DNA of 64,000 bases from positions 54,660,972 to 54,724,971 of the forward strand of contig OX393557.1 of the NCBI GenBank assembly GCA_947650365.1, read 5' to 3'. Made by a program: the position numbers and the translations under genes. Below, one piece after another: positions 25,496 to 62,001 of this stretch; within the stretch, counting starts at the first letter, position 1, and each line of letters starts with the position of its first letter. Source of the stretch: Chamaelirium japonicum. Its lineage: Eukaryota > Streptophyta > Magnoliopsida > Liliales > Melanthiaceae. The notes below the pieces were generated by a model. That model did not search any database. It was not told the DNA's origin and saw only the letters and a program-made list of their open reading frames with translations.

Positions 25496-25500
25496 GTTTA

Positions 25501-26261: not shown

Positions 26262-26600
26262 ATGGCCAACCAAGGTGTGGCGATGGTGGTGCTGATGATT
26301 ACACTGATGATCCTTGCGCAGAGTGAGAGCGTGGAGTACTCCACCAGTGTTTACTGGTGGTCGACTACCGGCCACTGCCCTGGCACCAAGTACAAAGTTG
26401 TTGCAGACGTCTGTGATTGCTATAAATTCACCGATAAGGTTGCTGGATACGAGATTGACTTCATCAGCCAAATAACAGTCACAATGTACAACGACGATTG
26501 CTGCGGCACCCCGGCCTTCACATTCACCTCATCTAATAGCGCCTGCGGTCAGTTCGGCTGGAAGTCTGTCATGATCGGAAATTCACAAATATGCACCTAA
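26262..26600 (+). CDS. MiAMP1-like antimicrobial protein (gene 1)
   Basis: An intronless 112-residue secreted protein. Residues 1 to about 22 form a signal peptide (MANQGVAMVVLMITLMILAQ). The mature part matches MiAMP1, the Macadamia antimicrobial protein with a beta-barrel fold of beta/gamma-crystallin type. The family pattern C, CxC, C, C, C is seen as Cys39, Cys51/Cys53, Cys80 or Cys81, Cys95 and Cys111, together with the aromatic YWWS near the start and the hallmark GQFGWKSVMI near the end. There is one extra cysteine (Cys80-Cys81). Family members are defence proteins acting on fungi and bacteria outside the cell; that role is inferred. The ATG at 26262 is chosen because it sits in GAGCATGGCC context, starts the signal peptide and is conserved in gene 2. 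The frame, TATA box and AATAAA site are all present, so it looks functional. Confidence 0.85.
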   Translation: MANQGVAMVVLMITLMILAQSESVEYSTSVYWWSTTGHCPGTKYKVVADVCDCYKFTDKVAGYEIDFISQITVTMYNDDCCGTPAFTFTSSNSACGQFGWKSVMIGNSQICT

Positions 26601-26666: not shown

Positions 26667-26702
<36 letters not shown>

Positions 26703-26723
26703 ACCCCCCCCCCCCCCCCTCTC

Positions 26724-26754
<31 letters not shown>

Positions 26755-33027: not shown

Positions 33028-34981
33028 TGTTGGAATTGGATCCGCTAATCAGAGTCGCAGCGGAAGCAAAAGAAAGATCCGAAGATCATACAGTATATGT
33101 TTCATTGCACTTAATGCTACAAAACAATCTACATGCAAATCTATGATCTTAGCATATGTCCGGACACCCTAGAGGCATACTACGATCTACGGAAGACATG
33201 CATGCATCTAGTTAGGTATTTAGAATCATCATACCTTTTGAATCTATGATCCGAAGAGAATGAAACGATGAAGAACCGCACTTGAATCACAAGGGAAACT
33301 GTCGGATAACACCTTGTCCTTTGCGAATTGAAGAATCCTCAAAATCCTGTCTCTGAGTGCAAGGATTACGAGCCGACGGAGGAATCTGTTGCGAAGACGA
33401 TGGCGAGCCGCTAGGTTTCCTCCTTCTCTTTCTCTCTTCTTCCTTCTCCTTCCTTCCTCTTTCTTCTCCCTTCTTCTTCCTCTCTTTTCCTTGGCCGAAA
33501 CCACAAAGGAGGAGCTAAAGGGGGGGTTAGGATTTTCTAGAGGAGAGGGAGCTTAGGACTGGCCCCTCCTTTTCCCTATTCCTTTATAGGGCCAGTCTTC
33601 CATCGCTTCAAGGAAGCTATGGCCGGCCCTAGATAGGTTAGGATAGAGAGGGGGCGGTTTTTAGGGATTTTCAGTGTCTATCGTGAAGCATGGACGAAAA
33701 CGCCCTTCACAAAAAGTGGAAAACTGAAAGAGAGACTGAGTGAGGTGCGCTACTCGGAATCGAGTTCCGTCAGTGCATATGAGCTCCTGGAATTATTCCG
33801 CTTATTCTAAGATCCATATTCAATATGTTTTGAGCCATATTTCAGTATTTACCAAAATACCCCTACGGCCCGTAACACATGTGAATTAGGTTCTTAAGCT
33901 CCGGGCTTACGCTCCATCGTGCTACTTCGCATCCAACGTATCCACCTAGGTCGGGGAACAATTCCTATATGCAATGACAGGGTGGAACCTTCAGGGTTCG
34001 GGATCTCTAGCTCCAACCGGATCCCTGATTAACTGTTCTGGTGACACACCGAAAGTTCCGTTAATCAGCCCTAATCCGATTAACCCGCATGGCCACCCAG
34101 AGTGTGACGCGAGTTGAACTCTAGTGATCCTAAACTTATGTTACTCCCTCGTAACCCTATTCTCTACTATACTCCGATAATCCTTAGTCCCTTCTATTAC
34201 TGGTGCCATGATACGACTTAGGCGGTGGAGAGCACCATCAGATCCCGATCGATCATCTGACTAGGGTTTGATGACTTGTCATCTATAACACCACACACCT
34301 TCCGGTGCTATGCCTAGCATCCGGAACATTGTCAGTCATACTGACAACCACCAGGCCTGGGTTAACTGTGTGGATAGATTGACTCATCAAAACGCACCCA
34401 TCCAATACTGGACGTCGGATAACCTATAGGGATTACATGTCACTCAAGCGCCAGCTGGGTAACCCAACGTACCGTGGTATTGGACTATGGAAGGTCCACA
34501 TACGTTGGCACATCAAAGCACCACACAACTGGTTGGCCCAGTGAACATGGTCCCTCAGGGTTAAGGATAGATTATCTATAGTAGTAAGACGGTTCATGCA
34601 TCAGTGTCTGAATCACTGAACTGTGCATCGTCTTGGTTCCTGTTCAACACGATCATCATGCTTGGTCAGGTGAATGAGAATCCCACGTTCCCGTGGTGGA
34701 TACTTCATCACATCCTCTACCTGCCAACAACTTGTTCTCGGTGAAGCGACCTGCATCACGTAAGCTGTGAACTAGTTCTAGGTCTACACAGAACTGGTCT
34801 ACTGGGTCTCCCAAGCATGGGTCCTCCATGCGCCTCAGTGGCCTACTGTGTTCCCTAGGGTTCTTTTATTATATGAGTATTATCATATACCAGAGTAGTC
34901 TTCTAATTAAAGCAATAACCAAAGTCATCTTTATTAATGTTAAGACAGAAATTCCACGCTAAGGACACAGGAGCTACAACA
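33028..34981 (-). mobile_element. 3' LTR of C1
   Basis: 1954 bp, TGTTGGAATTGGATCC to GGAGCTACAACA on the + strand, matched by 40056-42005 and by 1-1612 in the opposite orientation. The purine tract AAGTGGGAGAT (minus strand) adjoins it at 34982-34992. Confidence 0.93.
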
Positions 34982-35199
34982 ATCTCCCACTTGGCCTAGC
35001 GGGGAACAACAGTCTTAACTCACATGGCATCCACGTGCTTCTCAAACGCCTTGGTCGGTAACGCCTTTGTGAAAGGGTCCGCCATGTTATCTGTAGACGC
35101 CACCTGAGTCACTGCAACCTCCCCTTGTTTCTGCAAGTCCCAGATAATGTAGTATTTCCGCTCGATATGCTTGCTCTTCTGGTGATATCTTAGCTCCTT

Positions 35200-37700
35200 G
35201 GATTATGCTACCGCTCCACTATTGTCGCAGTAAAGGACAATAGGATCTTGAGCTCCCGGTACGCATCCTAAGTCCGTGAGAAACTTCTTGAGCCATACCG
35301 CCTCCTTAGCTGCTTCGCACGCCTTAACGTACTCAGTCTCTATCGTCGAATCCGCGATGCATCCCTGCTTCACGCTCCTCCAACTGACAGCTCCTCCTTC
35401 TAATGAAAACACAAACCCTAACATCGATCTCCTGGATTCCGGATTTGACGCAAAGTCAGAATCCGTATATCCAATCAGTATCAGTTCCTGTGAAGAGTAA
35501 ACTAACTAATAATCTCTCATCCTACGGAGATACTTGAGTATACTTTTCACAGCAGTCTAGTGCCCTGGACCCGGATTTGACTGATACCTACCCATCATGC
35601 CTACTGCATAGTATATATCTGATCTCGTGCACTGTATAACATACATCAGACTCCCTACAGCCGAAGCATAAGGTATCTTCTGCATCTCTTCCCTCTCCTC
35701 AAGAGTCTTAGGATCCTGATCCTTGGAAAATTTCATTCCATGTCTGAATGGAACCAGTCCCTTCTTGGAGTTGTGCATACTGAATCTGACCAAGATAGTA
35801 TCTATGTAGGCTGACTGTGACAGCGAGAGAGTCTCATTTTGGCGATCTCGAGTTACCTTGATCCCCAGAACATAACTTGCTTCACCCAGGTCTTTCATGT
35901 CAAATTGAGAGGATAACCACACCTTCACTGTAGACAATGTTCCAACATCGTTTCCAATGAGCAGGATATCGTCTACGTAAACCACTAGAAAAACTACTGC
36001 AGTTTTATCGCTCCTCTTATAAACACATGGTTCATCCACGTTCTGCTCAAATCCATAAGACTGGATAGCCTGATCAAAATGCATGTTCCAACTTCTGGAT
36101 ACTTGCTTCAGTCCATAAATGGATCTCTGCAACTTGCACACCAGACTTTCCTGACCTTTTGCGACAAAGCCTGGAGGCTGAGACATATGGATGTCTTCTT
36201 CCAAATCCCCGTTGAGGAATACGGTCTTGACGTCCATTTGCCAGATCTCCCAATCATAATGGGCTGCAATGGATAAGAGAATCCGGATGGACTTAAGCAT
36301 AGCCACTGGCGAAAAGGTTTCGTCATAGTCGATCCCTTCTCGCTGGGTATAACCCTTAGTGACTAGTCTTGCTTTGTAAGTCTCAACGGTACCATCCGGA
36401 CCTCTTTTCTTTTTGTCCATCCACTTACACCCAACAAGTTTAATATTGTGAGGTGGTGTTATAAGTGTTCAGACCGAGTTTTGGGACATCGATGTCAGTT
36501 CTGCCTCCATGGCTTCCTGCCATGCTGCATGGTCAGAGGATACCATCGCTTTGTCATAGTTCAGAGGATCATCCTCCTGAAACTCTAGATCTACTATAAA
36601 GGCTTCTCCAATGTATCTATCAGGAGCACTTGTGGTCCTTCCACTGCGATGAGCCTGCTGTGGTTCCATAGGAGTCGATTCTACAGTATTGTTTATCTTA
36701 GTGGTATCGGCTCCCACTACATTTTTTGTCTGCGTACTCCCATCAGTACCAAGCAATTCTTTAAGAACTACTTTACTGGTAGGTTTATGGTCTATTAAAT
36801 AATCCTGCTCCAGGAACACGGCGTTTGTCGAGACGACAACCTTTCTATCCTCAGGATCATAAAATAAACCATCCTTTGTCCCTTTTGGATACCCAACGAA
36901 CAGACATACCTTAGTTTTTGACTCCATCTTATCTGGCTTATCCTTCCGCACATGTGCTGGACAACCCCAAATCCTAAAGTGCTATAGGCTTGGCTTTCGC
37001 TTCAACTACAGCTCCCAAGGAGGTAGGGGTACTGACTTTGATGGAACAAAGTTCAAAGTATATGTTGCCATCTTTAGGGCATATCCCCAAAAATTAGGTG
37101 GTAATGTTGCATAACTCATCATAGTCCGAACAATGTCTAACAAAGTTCGGTTTCTCCTCTCAGATACACCGTTTTATTGCGGTGTCCCTGGTGCAATCAG
37201 CTGGGATACGATCCCATGCTCACGCAGGTACCCAATAAATTCATCCGATAGGTATTCACTCCTCGATCCGATCGAAGAGACTTGATACTTTTACCCGTCT
37301 ACTTTTTTGCTTCCGCTCTGAATTCCTTGAACTTATCAAAGGATTCAGACTTCCATCGCATTAGGTATATGTATCCAAACCTCGAGTGATTATCCGTGAA
37401 GGTGATGAAATATTCGAAGCCTCCTATAGCATGAACACTTATGGGCCCATATACATCAGTGTGTACCAACTCTAATACCTCCTTAGATCTGCTACCTTTG
37501 GCTCGGAAAGATCTTTTAGTCATTTTGCCTTCCAGGCAAGACTCATATGTCGGTAGGCTTTCTGAAATATCTGGACTTAAATGTCCTACCTTAACCAACC
37601 TGTGAATTCTGTCTGAGGCGATGTGTCTAAGCCTTAGATGCCAAAGGAGTGTTGGATTATCTGAGGGATTTTTCCTTTTAGATGAATTAATCACACAAGC
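35200..37700 (-). mobile_element. pol region of C1
   Basis: Recognisable pieces on the minus strand are GAG-pre-integrase (TLLWHLRLRHIASDRIHRLV), integrase (FITFTDNHSRFGYIYLMR), reverse transcriptase (YDWEIWQMDVKTVFLNGDLE and VVYVDDILLIGND) and RNase H (TIETEYVKACEAAKEAVWLK). They are clearly Ty1/copia pol. The region is broken in several places. Confidence 0.9.
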
Positions 37701-37833
37701 TTCAATTATGTTATCCTGCTTATGATTGGAGTTAATTACATAGAGACTATTCTATATCTTTCCCTTACAAACAAAGGAACAATTCAATTTAATTGACATA
37801 CCAGAAGCATCAAATAAAACTGAAAAACCTTCA

Positions 37834-38925
37834 TTATTCAATAAGAAAACAGAAATTAAGTAATAAACTTCTTCCATCAAGGAACTGCAAGACGGCATCT
37901 CCAACTGCTTCAGCCTCTGCCACGGCCTCAGTTCCAATACTTAGGATTATCTCCCCATCACCCAGTTTTTTTGTCTCCTTGAATCCCTGTAAATTATTGC
38001 AAGCATGGTTAGTGGAACCAGAATCCACAATCCATGAAACTGGAGAACAACTGGATACTACAAGGAATTCCACTATGTGGATTTGAGATATACCTATCTC
38101 AGCCTTCTTGGGAGCCGCGCGACAGTCGCCCTTCCAGTGCCCCTTCTTGCCGCATCGGAAATATTTTCCTTTGGGCTTCGTCGGACCATTCTGCTTAGGA
38201 ACCTGTAACTGCACCTGGCCCATCTTCACGGGCTTCTTAGATTTTCTTTTCTGAAATTTGCCTTTGGCTTTCAGAGAAGAATTTCGTTCCACGTTCAGGG
38301 ATTGGGCTCCTACCTTCATCCCGTCCTCTGCCGCCTGGAGCGCCGCTAGGAGCTTTGTGTTAGACATCTCCAACCGGTTAAGGTTAAAGTTGGTAACGAA
38401 GCCCTCAAACGCTCCTGACAGAGACGCGAGGAAAATATTGGTCTGGATCTCTGCATCCAAGATGACATCGAAGGAACCAAGCTCGTTCACATAGCCAAAC
38501 AATTTCAGCATATGATCCCGAACTAAAGTCCCCTCTGCCATCTTCGTGGACACCAATTTCTTGATGGTCAGGTAACGAGTTACCCGACTACGACCCTCGA
38601 ATATTTTCTTTAGGTAGAGCATCATGTCTGAAGCAAAGGCCATGTCTTCGACTTGCTTCTGAAGGGCGGTCTGCAAGGATGCCACTATGTAGCACTTGTA
38701 CATCTTATCAGCATCTAGCCAGTCTTTCCATTCCTTTAACTGAGCCTCAGTTGCACTTGGTCCCGGCATGGCCGGTTGAGGGGTACTTAGGGCAATTGAG
38801 TGTTTGGCAACCCTTAGGACGAGCATCAGGTTACGCTTCCAGTCCTCGTAGTTTAGTCCCGTAAGTTTGTTATCATTGAGTATGGAGGCAAGGGGGTCAA
38901 GCTTGGTCATGATTCCTGTAAACAA
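37834..38925 (-). mobile_element. gag region of C1
   Basis: An open frame of 363 codons. The N-terminal part is typical copia gag (LTGLNYEDWKRNLMLVLRVA), and a CCHC zinc knuckle (YFRCGKKGHWKGDC) lies near residue 260. A protease-like DSGSTNHACNNL motif follows near residue 308. It is the best-preserved part of C1. Confidence 0.88.
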
Positions 38926-40041
38926 TAGTTCAAAGCAAAATTAGGGTTTACTACAATCTATTTCATAGAATTTAGAAATAGATAATTTCTACTCCAGCTG
39001 CTATGTCTTCACCACCTCAAGTGGAGACATCCAAGAATCTAAATTCCCTGGGCTGGAGTACTGAGACTATCGGCCTTGAATTGGAGACAGCATCTCGGTG
39101 AGAGCATGCAATCGCTTCTGCCAACGGGGTTTTTACGACCCAGTCTTCATCAGAATTACCCATGGCAAACTGAAAAACCTCCCAGTCTCCTTTTGGCCAG
39201 CTTTATGTGACCCGCGTGCGCAGCAACAGTGGCTTCACACAAGCTTTCGGATGCTTCCCACAAATCTAGGTAGTGTCGGCAGGGGGGTTCATTGGCTCCC
39301 ACGGTGCAGGAAAAAACCGTCACCCACTGCACCGCGGGAGCCAATGAAGGATGCCAAAGGGGAGCCAATGGAGGATGCATAAAACCATCACCCACTGCCA
39401 CCGGCATCCTCTAGAGACAAACTCACAAGCAAGATAATAAAATTATCATCGGGGTTCTCTAAACAATAATTATAGAGAATCAACAGAAAAACATCCAAAC
39501 TGAATCAAGTCCAGGGTCTGACCCCTGAACCTGAATAGCACAGCCAAGTATCCTGCTCTTCCGTTCTGCACGATCTCTGACGACGATCCCTATCATCGCC
39601 AACGTGCACGCTTTCGCCGGGTCTTTGCACGCCATGGTACCGCTTGCCCGAACCGTGGATGAAGCATCATCTCCTTTTTCTTGTGACCGAAAAACTAACA
39701 TGCTCCGAGCAAGTACTCGTTTGTGTATAATTTTGCTAGAAAGAAAAGAAGACAATCTTAAAAACATGGCTAGGGAACCGAGGATGGTCAACCCCCACCC
39801 TCGCCCATCTAGAGCTTTAAAATCCACAAGCACAATAATAATCAATGCAAAAAAAAAAATCTGGGGTCCGACCACCGGATGCATGCAATCACAGATTACT
39901 ATTCAGCGCGGCACCTGTAAAAAGATGATACATAGCACAATCCATATGCATAATCTACGCCGAACCCCGACGAAAACATATGCCATCATATATTTACATG
40001 ATGTTTTCACGAATTCATGCATGAAACATACACCAAAGCAT
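38926..40041 (-). mobile_element. Leader region of C1; no gene seen
   Basis: It lies between the gag start and the primer site on the minus strand. It contains a short imperfect repeat (CACCCACTGCACCGCGGG and GGAGCCAATGAAGGATGCC words, 39290-39410). Small open frames here have no recognisable similarity. Confidence 0.6.
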
Positions 40042-40053
40042 GCTCTGATACCA
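40042..40053 (-). other. Primer-binding site of C1 (initiator Met tRNA)
   Basis: The minus strand reads TGGTATCAGAGC two bases after the 5' LTR, the standard plant copia primer site. Confidence 0.93.
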
Positions 40054-40055
40054 AT

Positions 40056-42005
40056 TGTTGGAATTTGATCCGCTAATCAGAGTCGCAGCGGAAGCAAAAG
40101 AAAGATCAAGATCATACGGTGTATTTTTCATTGTACTTAATTCTACAAAACAATCTATATGCAAATCTATGATCTTAGCATATGTGTGGACACCCTAGAT
40201 GCATACTACGATCTACGGAAGACATGCATGCATCTAGTTAGGTGTTTAGAATCATCATACCTTTTGGATCTATGATCCGGAGAGAACGGAACGATGAAGA
40301 ACCGCACTTGAATCGCAAGGGAAACTGTCGAATAGCACCTTGTCCTTTGCGAATTGAAGAATCCTCAAAATCCCGTCCCTAAGTGCAAGGATTACGAGCC
40401 GACGGAGGAATCTGTTACGAAGACGATGGCGAGCCGCTAGGTTTTCTCCTTCTCTTTCTCTTTTCTTTCTTCTCCTTCCTTCCTCTTTCTTCTCCTTTCT
40501 TCTTCCTCTCTTTTCCTTGGCCGAAACCACAAAGGAGGAGCTAAAGGGGGGGTTCGGATTTTTAGGAGGAGAGGGAGCTTAGGGCCGGCCCCTCCCTCTC
40601 CCTATTCCTTTATACGACTAATCTCCCATCGCTTCAAGGAAGCTAGGGCTGACCCTAGATAGGTTAGGATAGAAAGGGGGCGGTTTTTAAGGATTTTCAG
40701 TATCTATCGTGAAGCCTGGACGAAAACGCTCTTCACGAAAAGTGGAAAACTGAAAGAGAGACTGAGTGAGGTGCGCTACTCGGAATGGAGTTTCGTCAGT
40801 GCCTATGAGCTCCTGGAATTATTTCGCTCATTCTAAGATCCATATTCAATATGTTCTGAGCCATATTTTAGTATTTACCAAAATATCCCTACGGCCCGTA
40901 ACACATGTGAATTAGGTTCTTAGGCTCCGGGTTACACTCCATCGCGTTACTTCGCATCCAACGTATCCAACTAGGTCGAGGAACAATTCCTATACGCAAC
41001 GACAGGGTGGAACCTTCAGGGTTCGGGATCTCTAGCTCCAACCGGATCCCTGATTAACTGTTCCGGTGACACACCGAAAGTTTCGTTAATCAGCCCTAAT
41101 CCGATTAACCCGCGTAGCCACCCAGAGTGCGACACGAGTTAAACTCTAGTGATCCTAAACTTATGTTACTCCCTCGTAATCCTGATCTCTACTATACTCC
41201 GATAATCCTTAGTCCCTCCTATTACTGGTGCCATCATACGACTCGGGCGGTGGGGAGCACCGTCAGATCCCGATCGATTATCTGACTAGGATTTGATGAC
41301 TTGTTATCTATAACACCACACACCTTCCGGTGCTATGCCTAGCATCCAAAACATTGTCAGTCATACTGACAACCACCAGGCCTGGGTTAACTGTGTGGAC
41401 AAATTGACTCATCTAAACGCACCCATCCAACACTGGACGTCGGATAACCTGTAGGGATTACATATCACTCAAGCGTCAGCCGGGTAACCCAACGTACCGT
41501 GGTATTGGACTATGGAAGGTTCGCACACGTTGGCATATCAAAGCACCACACAACTGGTTAGCCCAGTGAACATGGTCCCTCAGGGTTAAGGATAGATTAT
41601 CTATAGTAGTAAGACGGTTCATGCACCAGTGTCTGAATCACTGAACTGTGCACCGTCTTGGTTCCTGTTCAACACGATTATCTTGCTTGGTCGGGTGAAT
41701 GGAATCCCACATTCCCGTGGTGGAGACTTCACCACATCCTCTACCTGCCAACAGCTTGTTCTCGGTGAAACGACCTGTATCACCTAAGCTGTGAACTAGT
41801 TCTAGGTCGATACAGAACTGATCCACTGGGTCTCCCAAGTATGGGTCCTCCTTGCACCTCAGTGGCCGACTGTGTTCCCTAGGGTCCTTTTATTATATAA
41901 GTATTATCATATACCAGAGTAGTATTCTAATTAAAGCAATAACCAAAATCATCTTTATAAATGTTAATACAGAAATTCCACGCTAAGGACACACGAACTA
42001 CAACA
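40056..42005 (-). mobile_element. 5' LTR of C1
   Basis: 1950 bp, + strand TGTTGGAATTTGATCC to CGAACTACAACA, followed by the target duplication CAAAC (42006-42010). Confidence 0.93.
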
Positions 42006-47570: not shown

Positions 47571-48854
47571 CTCATGCACCTAAGTACACCCTCATAGAGG
47601 ATGATCTCTACAAGCGCTTGTTTGGTGGACCCTACCTCAAGTGCCTTACCAAGGAGCAAGCAGTAGAAATCACAAGGTAGGTTCTTGAAGGTGGATGCGG
47701 AAATCATTCAGGAGGAAGGTCGCTCTCTTGGAAGATCAAGCTGTAGGGCTACTATTGGCTCACTACGAAGAGGGACGCATGAGAATACGTGAAAGGTTGC
47801 ATTCAATGTCAAAGGTTTGCAACCAACATCATTCAACCGGCGGAAGAGCTATACCCGATTCCTAGACCCTGGCCATTCCAACAATAGGGGTTGCACATCC
47901 TGGGTCCCTTCCCAACATCTCCTAATCGTCGAAAGTTTCTACTCGTTGCTACTAACTACTGCACAAATGGGTAGAAGCAATACCACTATTGATCGAAGAT
48001 TGGAGAAGTGCAGGTTGGTAAGTTCATGTGGTGCAACATCATTTGCCGATTCAGCTTGCCCAAGGCATTTGTCGCAATCTAGTTCGACGTAGAGTCGATC
48101 AAGAAATCTTTGTGCTGATAACAGTATCAAACTATTTATCTAACCTTCTCGGTACCCTCAGGGTAACGGGCAAGCTGAATCCCCGAATCGAGCTATTCTA
48201 GACATTTTGAAGAAGAATTTAGGGCAGAAGAAGGGTCTATGGGAGGACACTCTACCGGGAGTTCTTTGGGCTTACCGCACTTTACCCAAAAGGCTGACGG
48301 GAGAATATCTTTCTAGCCTTATCTATGGCTCCGAAGCGGTCCTCTCCACTGAAGCGCTAGTACCAATACTGCGGACAGTTGTGATTGCCGACCCGAGAGT
48401 GAGCGAGGAGCTTCTGCATGATAACCTAGATCTACTGAAGGATAAAAGAGAAAGGGCTAGAGCTCGCTTGGCTAGTTATCACCAAATGATCAAAAGGTTG
48501 TATGACCGCAAAGTCATAAAGCGCATTTTCAAACAAGGAGACCTAGTCATGCGAAAAGTTTTCGAAAACACAAAGGAGTCAGGAAGTGGGAAACTGGGGG
48601 CTACTTGGGAAGGATTGTACATCATTGATAGCGTGGAAAGAATGGAGCCTATCGATTGAAGACTCAAGAGGGAGACGTACTGGCAAAGCCATGGAATGTA
48701 ACCAACTTGCGAAAGTTCTACCAAGGCAACTGATCGAAGGGAATGCTTGTAACTGTCTTGTAGTTGAATTCAATTCAATAAAGTCGTGCCTTCTTGATGC
48801 TTCTATACATGTGTAATGGTGTAAATCGTTTTGAGCAACGAAAAGGCTAGTGTT

Positions 48855-49645
48855 ATATAACACTCCAAGTGAGTTCTACCGCCTGGCTGATAAGTCGACA
48901 GGTCACTTCGTAGGGCATTACCGACCGGAGAACACCTGGAAAACTGGTTAACAGACCCCGCTTGTGTCCGATCGATCAACCAACTTAAACCAGGTGGTAT
49001 TTAACACTCTAAATGAGTTCTACCACCAGGTCAATTGGTTGGCAGGTTCCTTCGCAGGGCATAATCGGTAGGAGAACACCTGGAAGACCGGTCGATAGAC
49101 CTTGGTTGGGTACGACCGATCAACTAACTTAAAACAAGTGGTTTATAATACTCCAAGTGAGTTCTACCACTTGGCCGACTGGTCGACAGGTCCCTTCACT
49201 GAGCATGATCTACCAGAGAATACCTGGAAGACCGATCGACAGACCTCACTTGGGTATGACCGATCAACCAATTTAAACCAAGTAGTATATAATACTCCAA
49301 GTGAGTTCTACCACCTGGCCGACCAGTCGATAGGTCCCTTCACAGGGCATGACCGGCCGGAGAACACCTGAAAGATCAGTCGACAGACCCCGCTTGGGTA
49401 CAAACGGTAAATCAATAAAAACCAAGTGGTATATAAAACTATAAATGAGTTCTACCACCTGACCGACCGATCGAAAGGTCCTTTCGCAATGCATGACCGG
49501 CCGGTGAGCACCTAGAAGACCGGCTAACAAACCCCGCTTGGGTTCGACCGGTAACCAATTTAAACCAAGTGATATATGACACTCTAAGTGAGTCCTACCA
49601 CTTGACCGACCAATCGATATGTCCCTTCACTGGGTGAGATCGGTC
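48855..49645. repeat. Tandem array in G2, about 144-bp unit
   Basis: Units start near 48856, 49000, 49142, 49287, 49431 and 49575. The sequence is of the same type as 20000-20815 with the same number of visible units. Confidence 0.92.
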
Positions 49646-49799
49646 GGTGTGCAATGAATGTTAAGGGTTGATAAATGTAGCCAAGAGCTAACAAATTTAA
49701 AGGAGAAAGATAAATAACCACGACCATTTTATTACAGGCAAAGAAAGCAATTCATCACATCACAAAGTAAAGAAAAGGGTGGGGGGTTGAGTGCATCAA

Positions 49800-51900
49800 T
49801 CCTCTAAGGGGCCCTTTCCTTTCCCTTTCGATAACTGACTTCACAGCTTGTCGACCTTCCTATGCCACACGGCTGCCTTAGTGTCGAGGGCCGCCTATGC
49901 TTCCTTGTTGAATTCTTCTAACTGCTGAGTGAGCACAGCCTTGTGCAATGCAGCTGCCTGCTCTGTAGCTAGCTGGTGGGTAGAATTTAGCACGGAGACT
50001 TCAGCCTCGTGAACCGCCCGGGCTACGGTCGCCTCATTTTGGAGCATCATAACCATGGCACCTTGATCCGTGAATCGAGTATTTGCTGCAGCGAGATCGG
50101 ACTTCACAGTCTGCAGGGCGGCGACCTCAAGGTCAAATCGGTCCATGGTAAGATCCGCCTTTGCAAGCTCCAGTTGGGCCTTGAGTTTGGCCACCACCTC
50201 AGAGTAGAGCTTCTGGGCCTCAGACAGCGCGTCCCTACTCCGAACCAGTTCTTGCAGGGCTGTCCTCAGAGAGCGCTCAAGCTTAGCAACCCTTTGCACG
50301 CTACCTTCGGTGACCCAATCAGCCAGGAGGTTGATGCGGTCACTAATCTGTCAAAGGTAGAAGTGATGAGCATCATAGAAGGGGTAGAGTGAATTACTAC
50401 TGGAAACAAACCACCAGCTCAGAGAAGAATCACCTTATGAAGGTTAACTAGCGTGTCTCGCCAACTTGAACTACTAGCCGCTACCCCCTCCCTCTCCCGC
50501 CTTGGGGGAGGAGCCAAATCCTCTTCCTCCATCTCAAGGTGAGTCGAGGCCTCGCTAGGTCGATGACGAGGAGCAGACTCAGTCATCTCAGGAGGAGACC
50601 CAGGAGAAGGCCTAGCAGCACCTACCGAAATAGAGAGGGAAGGCGAAGGAAGATGGGTCCATAAGGTCAAGCGACCCCCCAACATAGAAGAGGTCAGAGT
50701 AGTAGGGGAACAGGCTGAAGTTCGAGGTCGGACTTCGCAGAGTCTGAAGACACGACATGCCCTCTACTTCCAAAAGAAGGGGGGAGTGTAGCCGCATGAT
50801 ATCTCTGATGTATCCACCTCCACAAGACTCGGACTATGGGGAAGGACATCCTCAACCCAATCGTTAGGGAGAGACTACAACACCTTGAAAGGAGATCACC
50901 TCATGACACGGCCTTCCACTATATCGTCATCCCCAACAGGATTGGTAGATTCACCGAGGACAAGACGTCTCCTTGAACCCTCCTGTCCAATTGAGGCGGC
51001 AGTGCCTTTGGGTGCAACTGCTCTGCTACCCTCGCTTACAGCCCGTACTAAACCGTGTACGGCACCTAAGGATTACGCAAAGCTTAGATGTCACAGTGTT
51101 GGGATTGGAACGTCTAACGGAGCTAACATACCTATCAGGAATTTCCAAAGTAGAAGCAGATCGCCCTCCTCTTCCGCTAGTAGCTACAGGGGGACTAACG
51201 AATTCTGTTGTCTTCTTCCCTTTCTTAGAAGTCGAGCTGGCATGATGAGCCCTGACTATTGGAAGCTTTAGGAATAGCCGCTTCCAGTCGTCGTCACCTT
51301 TAGTGATCCTCTCGATCATCTCATCCAATTCTTCCACAACGGCTTCTGGACACTTGAGTTGCCCGGTGGGGTAGTAATCCTCTATGACATAAGCAAGGTG
51401 GAAGGGAGTTCTAGGAACCTTGTAGCGTCCCCTCTATGGCCCCCTAACCACAAGAGTGTAGTTTTTCTAGCCCTTCATAGAGTTAGACAAGCAACCGATA
51501 GGAGGACGGCAACCAGCATGAGCTTGGACGCTAAAGTATGAGCACTCGGCACCGACAGTTACCTTGTAATTTTCAAGAGCGTATTTCTTGAATAGATAAG
51601 CTACACAAAGTTGTTGCACAGATAGTTCTTCTACCGCTTCCATGCAGCGAAGGATCCTCCAATCGTTACCTGCAATCTGACCGGGCGCAAATCCTATGCA
51701 CTCTAGTAGTCGGCGGGAGAAGCTCGCCAAAGGAAGCCTCAAGCCACATCTCAGTTGTCCCAATGTGACCATTGTCCGGTCATCTGAAGGATCTAAAGGA
51801 CCAATTGCAAAGGAGAGGGAGATATTGGTAGGAATGCTGAAGGCTAGTCTAATATCTTTCATCAGGGGGGTTTCTTGGAGGGAGTGAAACACTCAAAAGC
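49800..51900 (-). mobile_element. Antisense gene region of G2 (Tat aORF type)
   Basis: The minus strand encodes MVTLGQLRCGLRLPLASF and LECIGFAPGQIAGNDWRILR, then a basic/acidic linker, then a well-kept coiled-coil stretch of 134 residues (49895-50299) beginning MQRVAKLERSLRTALQEL and rich in Ala, Leu, Glu and Lys heptads. It lacks the Cassandra found in G1. A structural or DNA-binding role has been suggested for such genes elsewhere; nothing here proves one. Fossil. Confidence 0.65.
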
Positions 51901-52384
51901 AATAGTCAATGAAGGAGAAGCAAGCTGACGGGATGAGTAACTTTTCGGTATGAAATATGCGGTCGGACAAGAAGCTTGATGGAGCGACTTGATCGACGAA
52001 AAGTGGGGGTTGAGCGCTGAGTCCGCGACCTGCCCACTAGACGCACGACCAGCCCACGTAGCGTATGACCAACCCAAAAAATGCCCGACCTAATGATGGA
52101 AAGACAACAAGATTTGAAGCAGAGGTGAAAAATGAGAGCCCTCTAGGCTCTATTTATAGAGAAACTTGGGGCCTTGGGGGTCGGTATAATTCCTGAGGAA
52201 GGTGGGAAACTGTGTGGCAGCACGCATGGATGCCATGTGGTGCAAGCGGGAAATAAGTCCATCTAACATTTATGACTTCAGCAACATTGAAGCCAAGGAC
52301 TGATGCCCTAAGACACACAAACCAAAACAGAATGGTCCTGATCAATCAGAAAGCCCTGAAATTTGATTAATCAGGAGCATGTAT

Positions 52385-53812
52385 TGTATGTGCGTCGAAA
52401 AATAAAGGAACGTACAAGACTCGGCCGCGCGCCACGTCCCGATCGGCCGTGAATTTTGCACCGGCCTGTCGCGCGTTACGCGACGGCCGACCGTGCGCCA
52501 TGTCCCGCTGGGCAAGGCTGATCGCGAACAAATAGAGGAAGGGGATCTGGAGATTCAGCCGGTGGCGCGTTACAAGTCGAATAGTCACGTGTTACGAGCC
52601 TGGCCAGTAGCGCGTCTGGTCGGCTACGCGTGGAAGTACTGTCGTTACTACCACAACTACACTCTGATCCAGGCTTTGATGCAATGTGTTTCTCTTCGAT
52701 GATTTTAATCATCTCCTCCGATCCGGGTTCCGGAGAGAGTGGGGCCTGCTTGCTGCCAGGTTTCGGCTCAGCGCGATATGCGGCTCTTAGGGTGCTTAGT
52801 CCGACGATCGCTTTGCAATCGCAGTTGCTCGATTCAGAGGAGGAGCTTAAAGATGTGTTTCTTCTTTTTCTTAATCTCCTCCTCCCTTTCCTTCAGCTGC
52901 TTCAGTTGTGCCAGGAGAACATCAACCGCTTCCGCAATCATCCTCCCCTCATCCACCAAAACCTAGAGGCCGGCTGGCCACGCGTTATGAGGAGGCTGAC
53001 CATGCGTTGCGAGCCTGGCTGGTCGTGCGTTGGGTTGGCCGCGCATTACACGCCGGTCGGTCGTGCGCCCCTGCTCACTGGGTATGACCAGCATGAGAAA
53101 ATGGAGGATGGGATCTGGAGACTCGGCTGCGCGCTTCGACAGACAGGTGCGACCGGCCGTGCACTATGTTCGCCTTGGGAAGGGGGGGTACCCGCTATCT
53201 CTGCCCCAAGACAGTTCCGATATTCACATAACGAGCGCACGAAGACCACGCATCAACTTCATGCAATGGTTACTTTCGAGAATCTTGACCGGGCGACGGT
53301 TACGGGAAGACAACTCACGCCTCGAGATTCCAATTTGACCATTAAGGCAAGAAACACCCCTGGCCATAAATATCGGGTGCCCGCTGTTCAACACGTCGCC
53401 CACTCGCGAGAAGTTACACAAGTCGTGGGAACACGCCATCAATGCCGCCCCGCACGGAGCGCCCTAGCTGTCACCCCGGAGCACTATAAAAGGATCCCAC
53501 CCTCTCGGAGAAATGGATCGGAATTTTAGGAAGGGGAAGTGCTGCCTGTCGTATTCCTGAATATTTGAAACTAGAGAGAGAAAGACTTGAGAGGTCAGTA
53601 TTTTGGGAGACCGGTCCTCTTCGGGTGTATGTGGGTCAGGGTGAGCATTTGTACTCGTGTTTCCTTGTTAGTGCTTTCTCGCCCCACCTCGCGATTTTTT
53701 TCCTTCGACATTACGAAGGGTTTTTCCACTTAAACCCGGTCTACTTATGTTCTTTGGATTGTTAGGTTGTGTCGTCCAGTTGAACCGCCCAATCCCGAAA
53801 AAAAACCCCACA
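52385..53812 (+). mobile_element. 3' LTR of G2
   Basis: TGTATGTGCGTCG to ACCCCACA, TATAAAA at 53485-53491. It is followed by GTTTATATGAAATTTAATTTG-type flank as after G1. Confidence 0.88.
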
Positions 53813-53911
53813 GTTTATATGAAATTTAATTTGAAAGACGCACCATCTACGATCCTCGGATAAAACTTTTGCTTCTGCTTCAACCCTTGATCCATAGGAT
53901 TAATTCCGACA
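53813..53911 (+). mobile_element. Copia-type LTR remnant, right part (duplicate)
   Basis: Second copy of the piece at 25496-25594, ending GATTAATTCCGACA. Confidence 0.65.
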
Positions 53912-54636
53912 ATAAGAATTACTATTGGCAATTAAAATATTTCCTTGTCGTAGTGGTAAGCCTTCCACCCTGTGATGTTTTTAATAATTTGAACATTACT
54001 CTTGCTTTTGCAACCTAACAAGTGTGGTGACCACTATGGTGGTCTCTTTAAAAAAATGAAGCTTCCGAGTACGTTGGTGCGTATTACTAAAGGGAGCAAT
54101 TTGATCCCAAAGTAGGTCCATTGCCGAAAAGGTTTCAAGACAACCGCCAATTCCAGAAAGAAGAAAAAAAATAAAAAAAATAAAAAAAAGGATCCAACAA
54201 AGAAGTTACTTCAATCTTTAACTCGACGTCGATCTTTTATTGTATTTTAATACTTGACAGTGGGGGAAGGAGACGACATGGTGTCCAAGGGGGTGTTTGG
54301 TAGGTGGAACAGTTGTTCCCCTTAACCCTCTTTCAACAGCTGTTCCCCTTAACCCTCTTTCAACAGAGGTTATTACCGTCATTTACTATTTATAATACAA
54401 TTTGATGGTTCAACATTCCGGTTGGCATAGAAACAGCCGGACTGACTTATATCTTTTAGTCCCCAAGTCCTTCATTCCACCGGAACAATTACTGGCCGTT
54501 ATTTTCAAATCATAGAATTCGGAATGGACATAGATTGTTCTGGAATGATGCAAAACACCCCCCAAGCTGCTACCCAGAGGGAAATTTTCAATTAGAACAT
54601 ACAAATGAGCATCGCTGTGGTTCACATGCCACCGCT
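53912..54636 (+). promoter_or_regulatory. Upstream region of MiAMP1-like gene 2
   Basis: Matches 25595-26156 block by block, with a full-length MITE at 54290-54561 lying 76 bp before the TATA box (54637-54644). Confidence 0.75.
54290..54561. mobile_element. MITE, full-length copy (272 bp)
   Basis: Ends GGGGTGTTTGG and AAAACACCCC form a 10-bp inverted repeat, flanked by CCAAG on both sides (54285-54289 and 54562-54566). The homologous site at 8856-8860 has one CCAAG and no insert. CAGCTGTTCCCCTTAACCC is partly doubled inside. Family not certain. Confidence 0.88.
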
Positions 54637-54644
54637 TATAAATA
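54637..54644 (+). promoter_or_regulatory. TATA box of MiAMP1-like gene 2
   Basis: TATAAATA, at the position corresponding to 26157-26164, followed by a shorter (CT)n leader. Confidence 0.7.
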
Positions 54645-54903
54645 GCCATCTACATGCTCAGCTCTTTCCAAACAATATCTCTCTCTCTCTAAATCTCTGT
54701 GTATGTGTTGCATGGGTTGTGAGAGCATGGCCAACCAAGTAGTGGTGATGGTGGTGCTGATGATTACATTGATGATCGTTGCTCAGAGTGAGGGCCAGGA
54801 CACCTATGCTTACTGGTGGTCGACAACTGGTGGCTGCCCCGGCACCTCAAACCCTATTGATTACTGCAATTGTTATAAATTCACCGATGGGGTAGCTGGA
54901 TAC

Positions 54904-55863
54904 TGTTGGAAATATGACCGTTCTATACTAACAAATTTAGGAATTAATCAAATTCTTAAGATTAAAAATTGATTAGCAAATATTATTTTAGCAAACAAGG
55001 ACAAATCACAAAATTCTTTTAGAAATGGTTTGCCAAGGCAGAGCGGGTTCTATGGAACCGTCATTCACCTTGCCGAACTTTTCTAAAAGTGATATATATA
55101 TAAATATATATATATATATAATTCTAAATATTATTTATCGCTATTTAGGTTTTGAATTAGATGCAAATTGTTTTTATGGATTAAATAATAGCAAAGAAAT
55201 GAAGTTAGAAATTCTGGCCTGATAGTCGAAGCACGCTAGGCGTTGTCCCAAGAAACTTATTGCCCCCCCTCGTGCGGGTCTCGTGGCAATGGTTCTCGGA
55301 GATACGACGACCCCGGTCAGGCAACCTCCTTCTCGTCGGCACGGCTCCAAGAAGGCTTTGCGAACCTCGATTGACTTACAGGAACCCAGCGACACTAAAG
55401 AAAATCGATAGAAAGAATCCCTCCGAAAAAGAAGAAGCGGAATCGCAACACTTCTTTTTGACCAAAATATGAGAAAGAAATTGCACAGAGTTTTTAGAGT
55501 GGAAGATGATATTTTTTCTATGTCAAAGCATTGGTCTCAAGTGGCTTTTATAGGCTTTTCCCAAGGTTTTACCGTTGGGCAGCCATAAGTGGCCATCAAG
55601 CCGTTGGATAGCCATAAGTGACCATCAAGCCGTTGAGCATTTGATGCATGGGTTACCGTTTGAGCTCATGTGACCGTTGGATTAAAATCCAACGTATTCT
55701 CAAAGGCCGGATGTTACCGTTTGGGCCCATGTGACCGTTTGATAACATCAAAAGCCTTGATGTTACCAACGATCAAAAGGGAAAAGGTAGTGGACAGCTG
55801 TACTGCAGAGCAGTACTGTGGACAGCTCATAACATTTACTGTTTTTAAAACATTTCACCAACA
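54904..55863 (-). mobile_element. 3' LTR of C3
   Basis: 960 bp, + strand TGTTGGAAATATGACC to CATTTCACCAACA, with an (AT)n run near 55094-55121. Confidence 0.95.
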
Positions 55864-56404
55864 ATCCCCCACATGTTTTAAAAACATCAAAAATTAAATT
55901 CAAATAAATAAAGACTTTTGCTGGATTCCTTATACTACGCAGTAGGTGTAGGTACCTTCCGGTTTGAACCTTCACTTAGTACAATTGTATACATCCGTGA
56001 GGACTTGGTGGTCTGCGCCTTGAACCAGTCTCATTTATCGGGTTTCTACAGGTTGTACACGTAGTACAGTTTTCGATGGTTCTAAGCGGGTTGCGCTATT
56101 AATGGCCTTGCGCAGATATCTTTTCGTGTATGTTTCTAGGGAGCAGCCCTGGTCCCAGAGTTGCGGCCTCACAACGACATACATATAGGTAAGTCCTAAT
56201 AGGGGTGTGAGCAAGGCGACACCCCGCCTCATGGGTCTTGGACTTATTAAGAGTTTTAAACTCATCCTACCCCTTGCTTTTAATAAGCACTGACGTCATA
56301 GGGACGGGAGCATTATTCAGTGCTCCTCATTTTCAATCACTACTACAGTTTGTTTCTACCCATTGAACCTCCGTGAGGTTGGGTTCCCACTGCGGTGATT
56401 TTTC
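55864..56404 (-). mobile_element. C3 untranslated region before 3' LTR
   Basis: Between the polyprotein stop and the purine tract on the minus strand. No further coding sequence or antisense gene is seen. Confidence 0.7.
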
Positions 56405-59400
56405 TTATGGGCTTAATCCCATCCCCCTCGACGATTCTAAGACCACTGTCCTAGAAAGGCCCTTAGTTAGATGATCCGCTAAATTCTTTTCGGATCTAAC
56501 AAAGTCTAGGGCAATTATTTGATTTTTCATTTTATATCTGAGAGATCTATGTCTCACTTTCATATGTCGATTTATTTTTACATCAGCATTCTCTTGATTA
56601 CATTTATCAATAGCTGATCGACAATCACAATGGATAGATATAGCCGGTAAAGGCTTTTCTATCAATGGGATCTCATATAGGAGATCTCGAAGCCATTCTG
56701 CTTCTGTGCTAGTGGTATCTAGCGCTATCATTTCCGATTCCATGGTACTCCTAGCTATAACGGTCTGTTTGGTGGATTTCCAAGATATGGCTCCACCTCC
56801 TAGTAAGAATACAAACCCGGTTGTTGACTTAATATCTATCGAGTCACTAATCCAGTTGGCATCAGAGTATCCCTCTAATACAGCTGGATATCCACTATAG
56901 TGGAGACCGTATGATATGGTTCCCTTAAGGTATCTAAAGACTCTTTCTAACGCATTCCAATGGGACAAATTCGGGTTAGACGTATAACGACTAAGTCTAT
57001 TTACCGCGTAAGCGATATCGGGTCGAGTATAGTTTGCTAGAAAACCTAGCGATCCTATGATCTGAGCATACTCGCTCTGTAGTCTAGGAAGTCCAGTATT
57101 CTTTGTCAGATGGGTATTTGGATCATATGGTGTAGATACCGGTTGACAATCGGGATCGTAAAATTTCCTAAGAATTTTTTCTATATAGTGGGATTGGGAT
57201 AACACTAAACCATTGTCCTTTCTAATGATCTTAGTGTTCAAAATAACGTCGGCTTGTCCTAGATCTTTCATGTCGAAGTTTTGGGACAAAAAATGTTTGA
57301 TATCATTTATGATTTGTATGTTTGAACCGAATATTAAAATATCGTCAACATACAAACATAAGATGACAACATTATTATCATCTACTTTATGGTATACACA
57401 TTCATCCGTTGAATTGATATCAAATCCATAGGATAAGATAACTTCATCGAATTTCTTGTGCCATTGTTTTGGGGCTTGTTTAAGTCCATAGAGGGATCGA
57501 ATTAACTTACACACCTTTCCCTCTTGTCCAGGTGCAGTGAATCCCTCGGGTTGGTCCATGTATATTTCCTCATTAAGGTCGCCATTCAAGAAAGCAGTCT
57601 TAACATCCATTTGATGTATGACTAGCTTATAGATTGAAGCTAAGGCGATGAGGATCCTAATCGTGGTTATCCTAGCGACAGGTGAGTAGACATCAAAGTA
57701 ATCTACTCCAGGTTTTTGGGTAAAGCCCTTGGCTACAAGTCGTGCCTTAAATTTATCTATGGTACCGTCGGGTCTAAGCTTTTTCTTAAACACCCATTTA
57801 CATCCTATGGTTTTACAACCAGGAGGTAAATTGGTGAGTTCCCAGGTATGGTTTTGAAGTATGGATTGGATCTCGTTATCTATGGCTTCTTTCCAAAAGG
57901 GTGAGTCTATGGACTTCATTGCATCTGTATAGGTGGAGGGAGAGTTCTCCACCAGAAGTGCATAGAAGTCATCAAAGACTTTCTCTACACGGGCACGTTT
58001 ACTCTTCCTAGGTTCGGTTTGGGTTACCGGTTCAGTCTGGTCTTCAGGTTCTAATTGGACTTCAGGTTCGATATTAGTAACCTGATTAGAACTGGAGGCC
58101 TGGTTACTAGTATTAATCCTAGTGTTGATCCTAGTCTTATAAGGGAAGATATTTTCGAAGTATGAGGCATCTCTAGCTTCGATTATGGTGTTATTGGCTA
58201 TTTCGCTTATTTCAGAGTTAAACACTAAAAAACGATTAGCGTTACTATCTGAAGCGTAGCCAATAAAGATGGCATCTACAGTCTTAGGTCCTATCTTCTT
58301 CCTTTTGTTATCGGGGATTTTTACCTTAGCTAGGCACCCCCACACTTTTAAATATTCTAAGTTAGGTTTTCTATGTTTCCATACTTCGTATGGGGTCAAG
58401 TCATTGTGTTTGAAAGGAATACGGTTAAGGATAAAACATGCCGTCATTAGGGCTTCCCCCCACAAGTTCTCTAGCGCTCCAGAGCTTAGTAACATGGAAT
58501 TGACCATGTTCATTAGGGTTCTGTTTTTCCTCTCTGCTACACCGTTGGATTGGGGAGTGTAAGGAGCTGTGACTTCATGGAGTATTCCATAGTCATCACA
58601 GTACTCACTTAACTCATTTGAGATGTACTCCCCTCCTCGGTCTGACCTAAGGATCTTAATGGTTTCGTCTAATTGGTTCTCAACCAGAGCTCTGTAAATT
58701 TTAAATTTACTGAGTACTTCATCCTTAGTTTTAATAAGGTATAGGTGGCAATATTTTGAAGCGTCATCTATGAACGTTACAAAATATCTATTGCCACCTC
58801 TCGAGGTTCTCCCAGAATCACAGACATCGCTGTGAATTAATTCAAGTATATGGGAGTCTCGATCGATGGTTTTAAAAGATTTCTTAGATTGTTTGGCTTC
58901 TACACATATCTCGCACTTATCGAGATTCCTAGTATCGGATTTAGGGATAATGTTTAAGGTCATGAGTTTCTTAATAGAATTATAGTTCACATGACCTAGT
59001 CTTTGGTGCCAAGTGACCGAAGACTCAACATTCAGAATTGTAGAAGAAGGATTATAAACATTCAATTTAAATAATCCATCACACAGAAATCCTTTTCCAA
59101 TAAAATTTGTTCCTTTAGTTATTACAACTTTATTGGACTCGAATACAAGCTTATACCCATGTTGTACTAACAAGGACCCACTAATAAGATTTCTCCTAAT
59201 CTCCGGAACGTGATGGACTCCGCGCAGGGTCAGGGTCTTCTCCGACGTCAGCTTCAGGTCGATCCGTCCTATCCCTAGCACACGAGCCTCAGCATTGTTC
59301 CCCATGCTTACAGCTCCTCCACTTGAGACCTGATAGGTGGAAAACAAAGATTGATCAGAGCAAACATGGATGTTAGCTCCTGTGTCAATCCACCAATCAA

Positions 59401-60547
59401 ATGCTTGAAAGGTCATGTTAACTTCAGGGGTGAAGAGAACAGACCTGAAAGCGGTCCCAGAAGAGCCAGCTCCAGAGGTCACCATGTTGACTTGGGAGCC
59501 GGGTGGCATTTGACCATTCCTTCTTGGATTTGGAGGTGGTGCTGTCTTCTTGTAGAAGCATTGGTTGGCCATGTGATTGGTCCGACCGCAGACATAGCAG
59601 CATCGCACTCCTTCCTTCTTTTGGTCCTTGGGATGGTTTGGATTATGGTTACTATGGTAGGGCTTCTTGGTATAGGGTTTAGGCTTAGGGTGGAAGGGTT
59701 TCTTTTGGAACTTATGTCTAGGTTTTTGGAATGGCTTGGATGGTTGACTCTCTATGATGTTGACCTTAGGTTTGGATTCAGAAGATCCCTTTTCCCTGAG
59801 CCTATGTTGCTCCTCAATTCTAATAGAGTTTAGAACTTGAGTTAGGGTTAGATCACCTTGGGTATGACTTAAGTGCTTAGAGAACTCAGACCAAGAAGCA
59901 GGTAGTTTATCTATAAGACAGGCTATTTGGAAGGTTTCATCAAGGGTGGAACCATTAGTCTTCAGATGTTGGACTAGGTTCTCAAACTCATGAATCTGAT
60001 CATTCATGGGTTTGGAGTCAACCATTTTGAAGCTGTTGAAGTCAGACGCTTTGAAGCGTTTTACTCCAGCATCATCTAGGCCATACTTACGCTCTAGGGT
60101 ATCCCATAGGTCCTTAGGATTTTGAATGGTATAGTAGATATCATATAGCCTATCAGATAAGGCTCCTAGGATCCTATGAAGGCCATGGTAGTTGATTTCT
60201 TCTGGGGTCCTAGTGGGAATGCCAGAAGTTGGTTCAGTTTCAGGTTGAGAAGTGGAGGCTCGGGTACGACGAGTTTGGCTAGACCCATTGGATACTCCTG
60301 GTGCGGTTTCACCTATGGCTGACAATAACCCAAGTGTGGTTAGCCAGAATCGCATCTGGTTTTGCCACCTCTTGAAGTTAGACCCGTCAAACTTCTCGGG
60401 TTTGGCACTAAGGGTTTCACGGTTTGGTGATGTCATTTCGGACCAAAGTAAGGAGTTGAAATCTGATAATTGAAAAAATAAGAGTTTTGTCAATTTTAAA
60501 GCAAACTGTATAGATTTGACTTTCAGAAGTCCAAATGAAACTTCCAA
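56405..60547 (-). CDS. C3 gag-pol polyprotein
   Basis: One continuous frame of 1380 codons; the likely start is the Met at residue 38 ([10 protein letters not shown]). Order: gag (about 40-260), CCHC zinc knuckle [15 protein letters not shown] (317-331), aspartic protease [13 protein letters not shown] (385-397), GAG-pre-integrase (about 510-560), integrase core (about 570-690), reverse transcriptase (about 915-1150, with [12 protein letters not shown]) and RNase H (about 1240-1370). This order, protease-integrase-RT-RNase H, defines Ty1/copia. Length is normal for the family. The element is part of the virus-like LTR class and is described only as it stands. Confidence 0.95.
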
Positions 60548-60880
60548 ATCCTAACGGCCAGATGGGCTCCAGGTAGGAGGTGGAGCACTAGGCTCGCTTA
60601 AATACCAAGCTACCTTGGGCAATTTAATGCCGGTTTGACAAGCCTTTCTAGACACCGTAGGCAGTGGAATATTCCAATGACGACTTTTAGTCTTTTCTAT
60701 AATCTATGCTTCTAATTAACCTTGTAAATAATAATTTTGCAACTAGTAACTAGTAGCAACTAATAGATAGCACGGAATAATATCTAATAGATGATCACGT
60801 AGGCTAACAGATGATTAGTGAGCACGTTACAAATAAAATAACTTATGAACGATTAAGTTATAACAATAAGTTTCTTGGAT
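60548..60880 (-). mobile_element. C3 leader; no gene seen
   Basis: Non-coding stretch between the 5' LTR and the polyprotein frame on the minus strand, AT-rich, with repeated AACTAGTARC and AATAGATARC words near 60740-60800. Confidence 0.7.
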
Positions 60881-61067
60881 TGTTGGAAATATGACCGTTC
60901 TATACTAACAAATTTAGGAATTAATCAAATTCTTAAGATTAAAAATTGATTAGCAAATATTATTTTAGCAAACAAGGACAAATCACAAAATTCTTTTAGA
61001 AATGGTTTGCCAAGGCAGAGCGGGTTCTATGGAACCGTCATTCACCTTGCCGAACTTTTCTAAAAGT

Positions 61068-61118
<51 letters not shown>

Positions 61119-61858
61119 CTAAATATTATTTATCGCTATTTAGGTTTTGAATTAGATGCAAATTGTTTTTATGGATTAAATAATAGCAAAGAAATGAAGT
61201 TAGAAATTCTGGCCTGATAGTCGAAGCACGCTAGGCGTTGTCCCAAGAAACTTATTGCCCCCCCTCGTGCGGGTCTCGTGGCAATGGTTCTCGGAGATAC
61301 GACGACCCCGGTCAGGCGACCTCCTTTTCGTCGGCACGGCTCCAAGAAGGCTTTGCGAACCTCGATTGACTTACAGGAACCCAGCGACACTAAAGAAAAT
61401 CGATAGAAAGAATCCCTCCGAAAAAGAAGAAGCGGAATCGCAACACTTCTTTTTGACCAAAATATGAGAAAGAAATTGCACAGAGTTTTTAGAGTGGAAG
61501 ATGATATTTTTTCTATGTCAAAGCATTGGTCTCAAGTGGCTTTTATAGGCTTTTCCCAAGGTTTTACCGTTGGGCAGCCATAAGTGGCCATCAAGCCGTT
61601 GGATAGCCATAAGTGACCATCAAGCCGTTGAGCATTTGATGCATGGGTTACCGTTTGAGCTCATGTGACCGTTGGATTAAAATCCAACGTATTCTCAAAG
61701 GCCGGATGTTACCGTTTGGGCCCATGTGACCGTTTGATAACATCAAAAGCCTTGATGTTACCAACGGTCAAAAGGGAAAAGGTAGTGGACAGCTGTACTG
61801 CAGAGCAGTACTGTGGACAGCTCATAACATTTACTGTTTTTAAAACATTTCACCAACA
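60881..61858 (-). mobile_element. 5' LTR of C3
   Basis: 978 bp, nearly identical to 54904-55863; the (AT)n run is about 18 bp longer. Confidence 0.95.
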
Positions 61859-62001
61859 GATACGAGATCAACTACGGCGGCGCAACGCCAGTCACAATGT
61901 ACAACGACGATAGCTGCGCCACCCCAACCTTCACATTCACCTCAAGTAATGCCTACTGCGGTCAGTATGGCTGGAAGTCTGCCAAGATCGGACAGTGCTA
62001 A

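Follow-up and report, generated by a model that had tools for sequence, protein, structure and literature searches.

A young Ty1/copia insertion splits an open MiAMP1-like gene within a gene array of Chamaelirium japonicum

MiAMP1 is a small beta-barrel protein in which six cysteines form three disulphides. In Lemnaceae, MiAMP1 genes are present in high copy number and undergo rapid birth and death, and several are found in taro, according to the accessible part of PMC9828482. Self-priming has been predicted in print for one lineage of Ty1/copia retrotransposons, TAR (Neumann et al., 2019, PMC6317226, accessible part). We describe here a 64,000-nucleotide stretch of the Chamaelirium japonicum genome (hereafter the window), corresponding to positions 54660972-54724971 of contig C9 (74 Mb, in a 1.52-Gb genome), in which a Ty1/copia element, C3, splits a MiAMP1-like gene.

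The array to which this gene belongs shares many copies and turnover with the Lemnaceae expansions, and differs from them, as far as the accessible text of PMC9828482 goes, in showing a physical array and one death event with a datable cause; transposon-split copies are not described in that part, and the word 'tandem' is not in its main text. A limited search of the MiAMP1 literature also returned no report of a transposon-split MiAMP1 gene.

Our results point to a young copia insertion into an open member of a MiAMP1-like array, a member that is now almost certainly null, and we give this reading as a whole a probability of about 0.86. On this reading, ordinary integrase-mediated transposition placed C3, with its open gag-pol frame, behind codon 59 of a gene in a large array with rapid turnover, within about the last 0.03-2 million years (My); until then, the gene was an open paralogue.

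Structure of the split gene and of the element

The frame of the interrupted gene starts with an ATG at 54727 and closes with a TAA at 61999-62001. Its 5' piece (54727-54903) holds 59 codons, and its 3' piece (61859-62001, with one copy of the target included) continues in frame on the other side of C3. A preliminary description had presented this second MiAMP1-like gene of the window as open on both sides of C3, with a perfect 5-bp target-site duplication (TSD) inside the coding region, and this is what we find: each half is open and holds three cysteines, which makes six over both halves, and GATAC stands at both junctions, at the positions first read, with 5 of 5 bp matching (a 5-bp match is expected by chance about once in 1024). 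That a MiAMP1-like gene has been split by a recent insertion of C3 is confirmed. The truncated frame left by the insertion is 81 aa long and its last residues derive from the long terminal repeat (LTR); the remaining product would have at most this length, combining a signal-peptide-like start with a portion of the mature region, half of the six cysteines and the LTR-derived tail. Judging from these features of the sequence, the interrupted gene is almost certainly null.

The two gene halves were scored separately against the MiAMP1 family (PF09117; Macadamia antimicrobial protein, PDB 1c01). The 3' half narrowly passes (26.1 bits for a cut-off of 26) and aligns to 1c01 in a search of solved structures (phmmer E 0.013), while the 5' half alone matches no family in the Pfam scan and nothing credible among solved structures in the sequence search. 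The 5' half does, however, align with five paralogues in which this half is nearly complete (68-89% identity), with a shorter stretch of L005 (83%) and with a stub in L007 (56%); three of the five, open in full, themselves pass PF09117 (L003, L004 and L006, also numbered L033, L019 and L012), the nearest open paralogue, L003/L033, with 27.8 bits. The locus shares with the family the Pfam match of the 3' half and of the open paralogues, the six cysteines, the signal-peptide-like start and the single short open frame, and differs from it by the weak similarity of the 3' half to 1c01 and by the retrotransposon that splits this copy.

C3 has the TG...CA termini of Ty1/copia LTRs (both LTRs start with TGTTGG and end with CCAACA), a 5-bp TSD and an integrase placed ahead of the reverse transcriptase. 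Its polyprotein had been described as one continuous frame, and gag-pol is indeed a single open frame (Table 1), in which the DTGA, CCHC and YVDD motifs are found. When this frame was scanned against Pfam in four pieces, the copia gag, Pol beta-barrel, gag-pre-integrase, SH3-like and RVT_2 domains scored above their cut-offs. The integrase core (29.2 bits for a cut-off of 32.6) and the CCHC knuckle (19 for 20.8) fell short, each being divided by a piece boundary, and the domains flanking the integrase core passed.

Primer sites for the 3' end of a tRNA begin with TGG. On the sense strand beside the 5' LTR, C3 has AT-CCAAGAAACTTATTG, without a TGG start, and it is solely from this absence that tRNA complementarity was judged. 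The 15-nt primer site is also present inside each LTR, in the opposite orientation and as an exact complement. All 40 family LTR loci carry the LTR segment without a mismatch, and 19 of the 20 inner junctions carry the exact primer site, the last being one base off (the remaining 20 of the 40 loci are LTRs followed by the polypurine side); both are thus nearly invariant across the family and leave no covariation to score. The copia domain order, the 5-bp TSD and the non-TGG primer site complementary to the element's own LTR are shared with the TAR lineage as presented in the accessible part of PMC6317226, from which we noticed no departure, and C3 probably belongs to this self-priming lineage. 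Self-priming of C3 was considered as a novelty and rejected as such: being already in print for TAR elements (PMC6317226, accessible part), it makes the primer site a clue to classification and not a discovery.

Table 1. Positions, in window coordinates, of the split gene, of C3 and its parts, and of the other MiAMP1-like gene of the window
Feature	Positions	Strand	Basis
TATAAATAG box upstream of the interrupted gene, retained	54637..54645	+	
5' half of the MiAMP1-like gene, open, with 3 cysteines, covering a signal-peptide-like start and the N-terminal portion of the mature protein	54727..54903	+	
Target-site duplication GATAC, left copy	54899..54903	+	junction reading
Ty1/copia element C3, 6,955 bp, antisense to the MiAMP1-like gene	54904..61858	-	junctions, LTR alignment, motifs
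3' LTR of C3, 960 bp	54904..55863	-	LTR alignment
Polypurine tract region beside the 3' LTR, sense ...ACATGTGGGGGAT	55864..55880	-	
gag-pol frame, open, 1380 codons, first ATG at 60436	56405..60547	-	ORF, Pfam, motifs
Primer-binding site CCAAGAAACTTATTG, complementary to C3's own LTR	60864..60878	-	
5' LTR of C3, 978 bp, with TATAAA and the primer segment at positions 312 and 602 of the LTR, respectively	60881..61858	-	
Segment CAATAAGTTTCTTGG (sense) inside the LTR, the primer-binding site in exact reverse complement; the other LTR carries it at 55248-55262	61243..61257	-	
Target-site duplication GATAC, right copy	61859..61863	+	junction reading
3' half of the MiAMP1-like gene, in frame, 3 cysteines, ending ...KIGQC + TAA	61864..62001	+	
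Paralogous MiAMP1-like gene (L012, first in the window), open, 112 aa, PF09117 40.4 bits; uninterrupted at the equivalent site	26262..26600	+	

Age of the insertion and state of the gene before it

The LTRs of C3 had been called near-identical, and their global alignment bears this out, with 3 substitutions (at 55323/61318, 55332/61327 and 55772/61767) and an AT microsatellite that is 18 bp longer in the right LTR than in the left. Outside the microsatellite, 3 of 899 sites differ, all by transitions (Kimura two-parameter divergence, K2P, 0.0033, or 0.33%). Each change is private to a single one of the 40 family LTRs (two belong to the left LTR of C3, one to the right), and they therefore most likely arose after the insertion, in the C3 copy itself. 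As all three are C-to-T or G-to-A, a pattern expected of methylated repeats, the true age may be lower than the divergence suggests. Ages were computed as T = K/2r. With the slower rates of 7e-9, 4e-9 and 2.5e-9, the insertion would date back 0.24, 0.42 and 0.67 My, respectively. With the rate of 1.3e-8 per site per year used for plants (Jedlicka et al., PMC7251063, accessible part), it would be about 0.13 My old.

C3 was compared to its own family through 16 dated LTR pairs, drawn from the best 40 of 2,931 candidates and hence biased towards close relatives. Outside the microsatellite, substitutions number 0 in 5 pairs, 1 in 4, 2 in 1, 3 in 2 (C3 being one of these two), 4 in 2, 6 in 1 and 9 in 1. 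The insertion had been described as that of a very young element, and this stands in absolute terms; within the family, C3 is not exceptional, since 10 of the 15 other dated pairs have fewer LTR substitutions than C3, among which 5 have none at all. A perfect 5-bp TSD, as aligned, is found in 13 of the 16 pairs, C3 included, and 4 of 5 bases match in one more; in the two pairs without an aligned match, the flanks can be brought into agreement by shifting the boundary or by accepting a 6-bp duplication. Two of the 16 pairs, which span about 15-16.6 kb, probably hold nested insertions.

The history of the gene before the insertion was approached by comparing it to its paralogues. In trees made for each half, it groups with L003 and L002 (support of 97/94 for the 5' half and 90/90 for the 3' half), on a branch of its own of 0.062 (5' half) and 0.027 (3' half) changes per site. 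Compared to L003, its nearest open relative, dS is 0.076 and dN 0.048; as this dS is more than 20 times the LTR divergence of 0.0033, the gene has been a separate open copy for far longer than it has been broken. Multiples of three account for all three gaps relative to the L003 coding sequence and for 7 of the 57 indels counted in duplicated DNA nearby (a sample that includes overlapping tandem alignments and 41 one-base gaps), which favours a constraint on the frame before the insertion.

Several observations nevertheless weigh against our preferred reading, or against parts of it. The Pfam scan of the C3 gag-pol matched no RNase H family, so that the element may not be fully competent. The Poisson interval on three events is wide (0.6-8.8), and allows ages from about 0.03 to 0.4 My under the fast rate and from 0.14 to 2 My under the slow one. 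Gene conversion between LTRs can make an element seem younger than it is (PMC7251063, accessible part). Finally, dN/dS relative to L003 is 0.63, which is not distinct from neutrality (Fisher p 0.34, on rounded counts), so that a function of the gene prior to its interruption is unproven.

If the C3 LTRs had been homogenised by conversion, the insertion could be much older than it appears. Such conversion is reported between plant LTRs, potential events being predicted in 25% of the LTR pairs (Jedlicka et al., PMC7251063, accessible part), and two of the three C3 substitutions are only 9 bp apart, leaving room for a converted block elsewhere. An old insertion fits poorly, however, with a TSD and two gene halves free of decay, no stop or loss of frame being seen in the latter since the insertion, and with microsatellite lengths that still differ between the LTRs; we thus regard it as very unlikely.

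The dN/dS value bears on another possibility, namely that the interrupted gene was already a non-functional, unconstrained paralogue and that C3 landed in a dead but open copy. In the mature part, dN/dS relative to L003 even reaches about 1.1 (dS 0.055, dN 0.061), about half of the simulated histories of 15 substitutions are also stop-free, and about half of the array is broken anyway. On the other side, the frame-keeping gaps described above, the complete lack of non-synonymous differences from L003 in the first 22 aligned codons, and the retention of six cysteines and of a TATA box all speak for a gene still under constraint, and a dead target seems unlikely to us.

The MiAMP1-like array

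Searches of the genome at the DNA level, in each of which the best 40 candidates were scored, returned at least 41 matches for the left flank of the insertion and at least 40 for the right flank, and a Pfam search returned at least 28 for PF09117. They place at least 23 MiAMP1-like genes over 1.34 Mb of C9. At least 11 are open in full (L003, L004, L012, L013, L015, L016, L017, L020, L023, L024 and L077), and 12 of the places listed are broken (the interrupted gene, L007/L022, L002, L005, L008, L078, L079, L028, L080, L081, L082 and L083).

L007 and L022 are one MiAMP1 gene split by an 11.46-kb LTR element (C9:54630383-54641844, TSD GATGG). Over 963 aligned columns, 70 sites distinguish the sampled parts of its two LTRs, and the downstream gene half already contains a stop, so that this split is an older case, contrasting with the C3 insertion in the same array. 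An LTR of this element is about 92% identical to the LTR pair of another element, located at 33028-42005 of the window and related to it, whose own LTRs (about 1.96 kb) are 93.3% identical.

The other broken copies are varied. L002 has lost one base near its start, and a later ATG could still serve. L002 (C9:54522832) and L003 (C9:53612360), 0.9 Mb apart, do not differ in that part of the coding sequence on which the trees are based, which could result from recent duplication or from gene conversion. The 5' part of L028, L080, L081, L082 and L083 and the 3' part of L078 and L079 were not found within the examined stretches of at most 3.2 kb; as the missing halves of these seven copies lie beyond such short stretches, more insertions are possible. 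L008, with a TG at its break, was tried as a further LTR insertion and rejected, since no LTR pair and no 3' half turned up over 7.5 kb. What follows the break corresponds to pieces of the window at 6534-7780, then at 12898-15490, and the break looks like a rearrangement.

Two other features of the window were observed near its MiAMP1-like genes. A direct duplication of about 7 kb (18725-26058 and 47571-54407, about 86% identity) lies upstream of both of them. At about 27212-27424, an insertion of about 209 bp, which ends in poly-T and carries a direct repeat (about 13-15 bp), is absent from the paralogous stretches and has at least 21 matches elsewhere in the genome at 100% over about 212 bases; it resembles a recently active short interspersed element.

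A second allele and the consequences of the insertion

It is compatible with our preferred reading, as a further claim, that the C3 insertion segregates today as a null allele beside an uninterrupted one, the presence/absence polymorphism proposed in the preliminary description. No second allele, either inserted or empty, was found in the assembly: among the best 40 candidates for each flank, only the locus itself matches at 100%, and the next-best matches are paralogues (86-89% for the left flank, 92-94% for the right). Likewise, for window positions 26671-27800 the locus itself was the sole 100% match covering most of the query, a short internal repeat excepted.

Another contig, C16, repeats the order of the MiAMP1-like genes of C9 near 2.1-2.3 Mb (L026/L027 and L089-L094), with about 98.4-99.6% identity apart from gaps. 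Three region pairs have 6 mismatches each over about 1,570-1,600 bases and a fourth has 43 over 3,137. Overall, this amounts to 61 mismatches in about 7,890 compared bases, or about 0.8% on average (0.4% in the three pairs and 1.4% in the fourth). C16 may be the other haplotype, left unmerged, of a different part of C9. This would matter for the age of the insertion: if C16 is the other haplotype, the LTR divergence of 0.33% is below the mean divergence between alleles, so that the insertion would be younger than a typical allele pair, which would favour segregation. A second haplotype is a tentative reading of C16, however: a fifth region pair (C9:2396000 and C16:2683000) did not align, and the non-positional pair L091/L094 reaches the same similarity as the positional pairs, with 6 mismatches over about 1,390 bases, which weakens the haplotype inference. 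With this and the lack of a second allele among the assembly matches, we hold segregation to be conceivable, at slightly less than even odds.

The insertion had also been described as the knock-out of a defence gene. While the recent insertion into an open frame of the MiAMP1 family stands, its effect is probably overstated in these terms, since the array still holds at least 11 open paralogues, which would buffer the loss. The event looks like ordinary birth-and-death turnover of a gene family, unusually well dated.

A quite different consequence can be imagined. C3 runs antisense to the gene, and the LTR at its downstream end directly borders the 5' half that is retained; antisense read-through from this LTR into the 5' half could yield small RNAs dampening the open paralogues, which would turn the broken copy into a dominant regulator of the cluster. 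Of the 234 distinct 21-mers in 54650-54903, 70 are common to L003, 60 to L002 and 1-13 to each of ten other paralogues (low-complexity words were removed from the shared counts and kept in the 234), so that such hypothetical small RNAs could reach paralogues, mainly the nearest ones. We consider this scenario most improbable; were it true, the insertion would do more than remove one gene.

Taken as the loss of one array member, the C3 insertion provides a clean, datable example of an antimicrobial-peptide array losing members to active retrotransposons, beside an older, decayed case in the same array. Should the insertion still be segregating, this locus would offer a natural way of testing whether a single gene counts in a defence cluster with redundant members.

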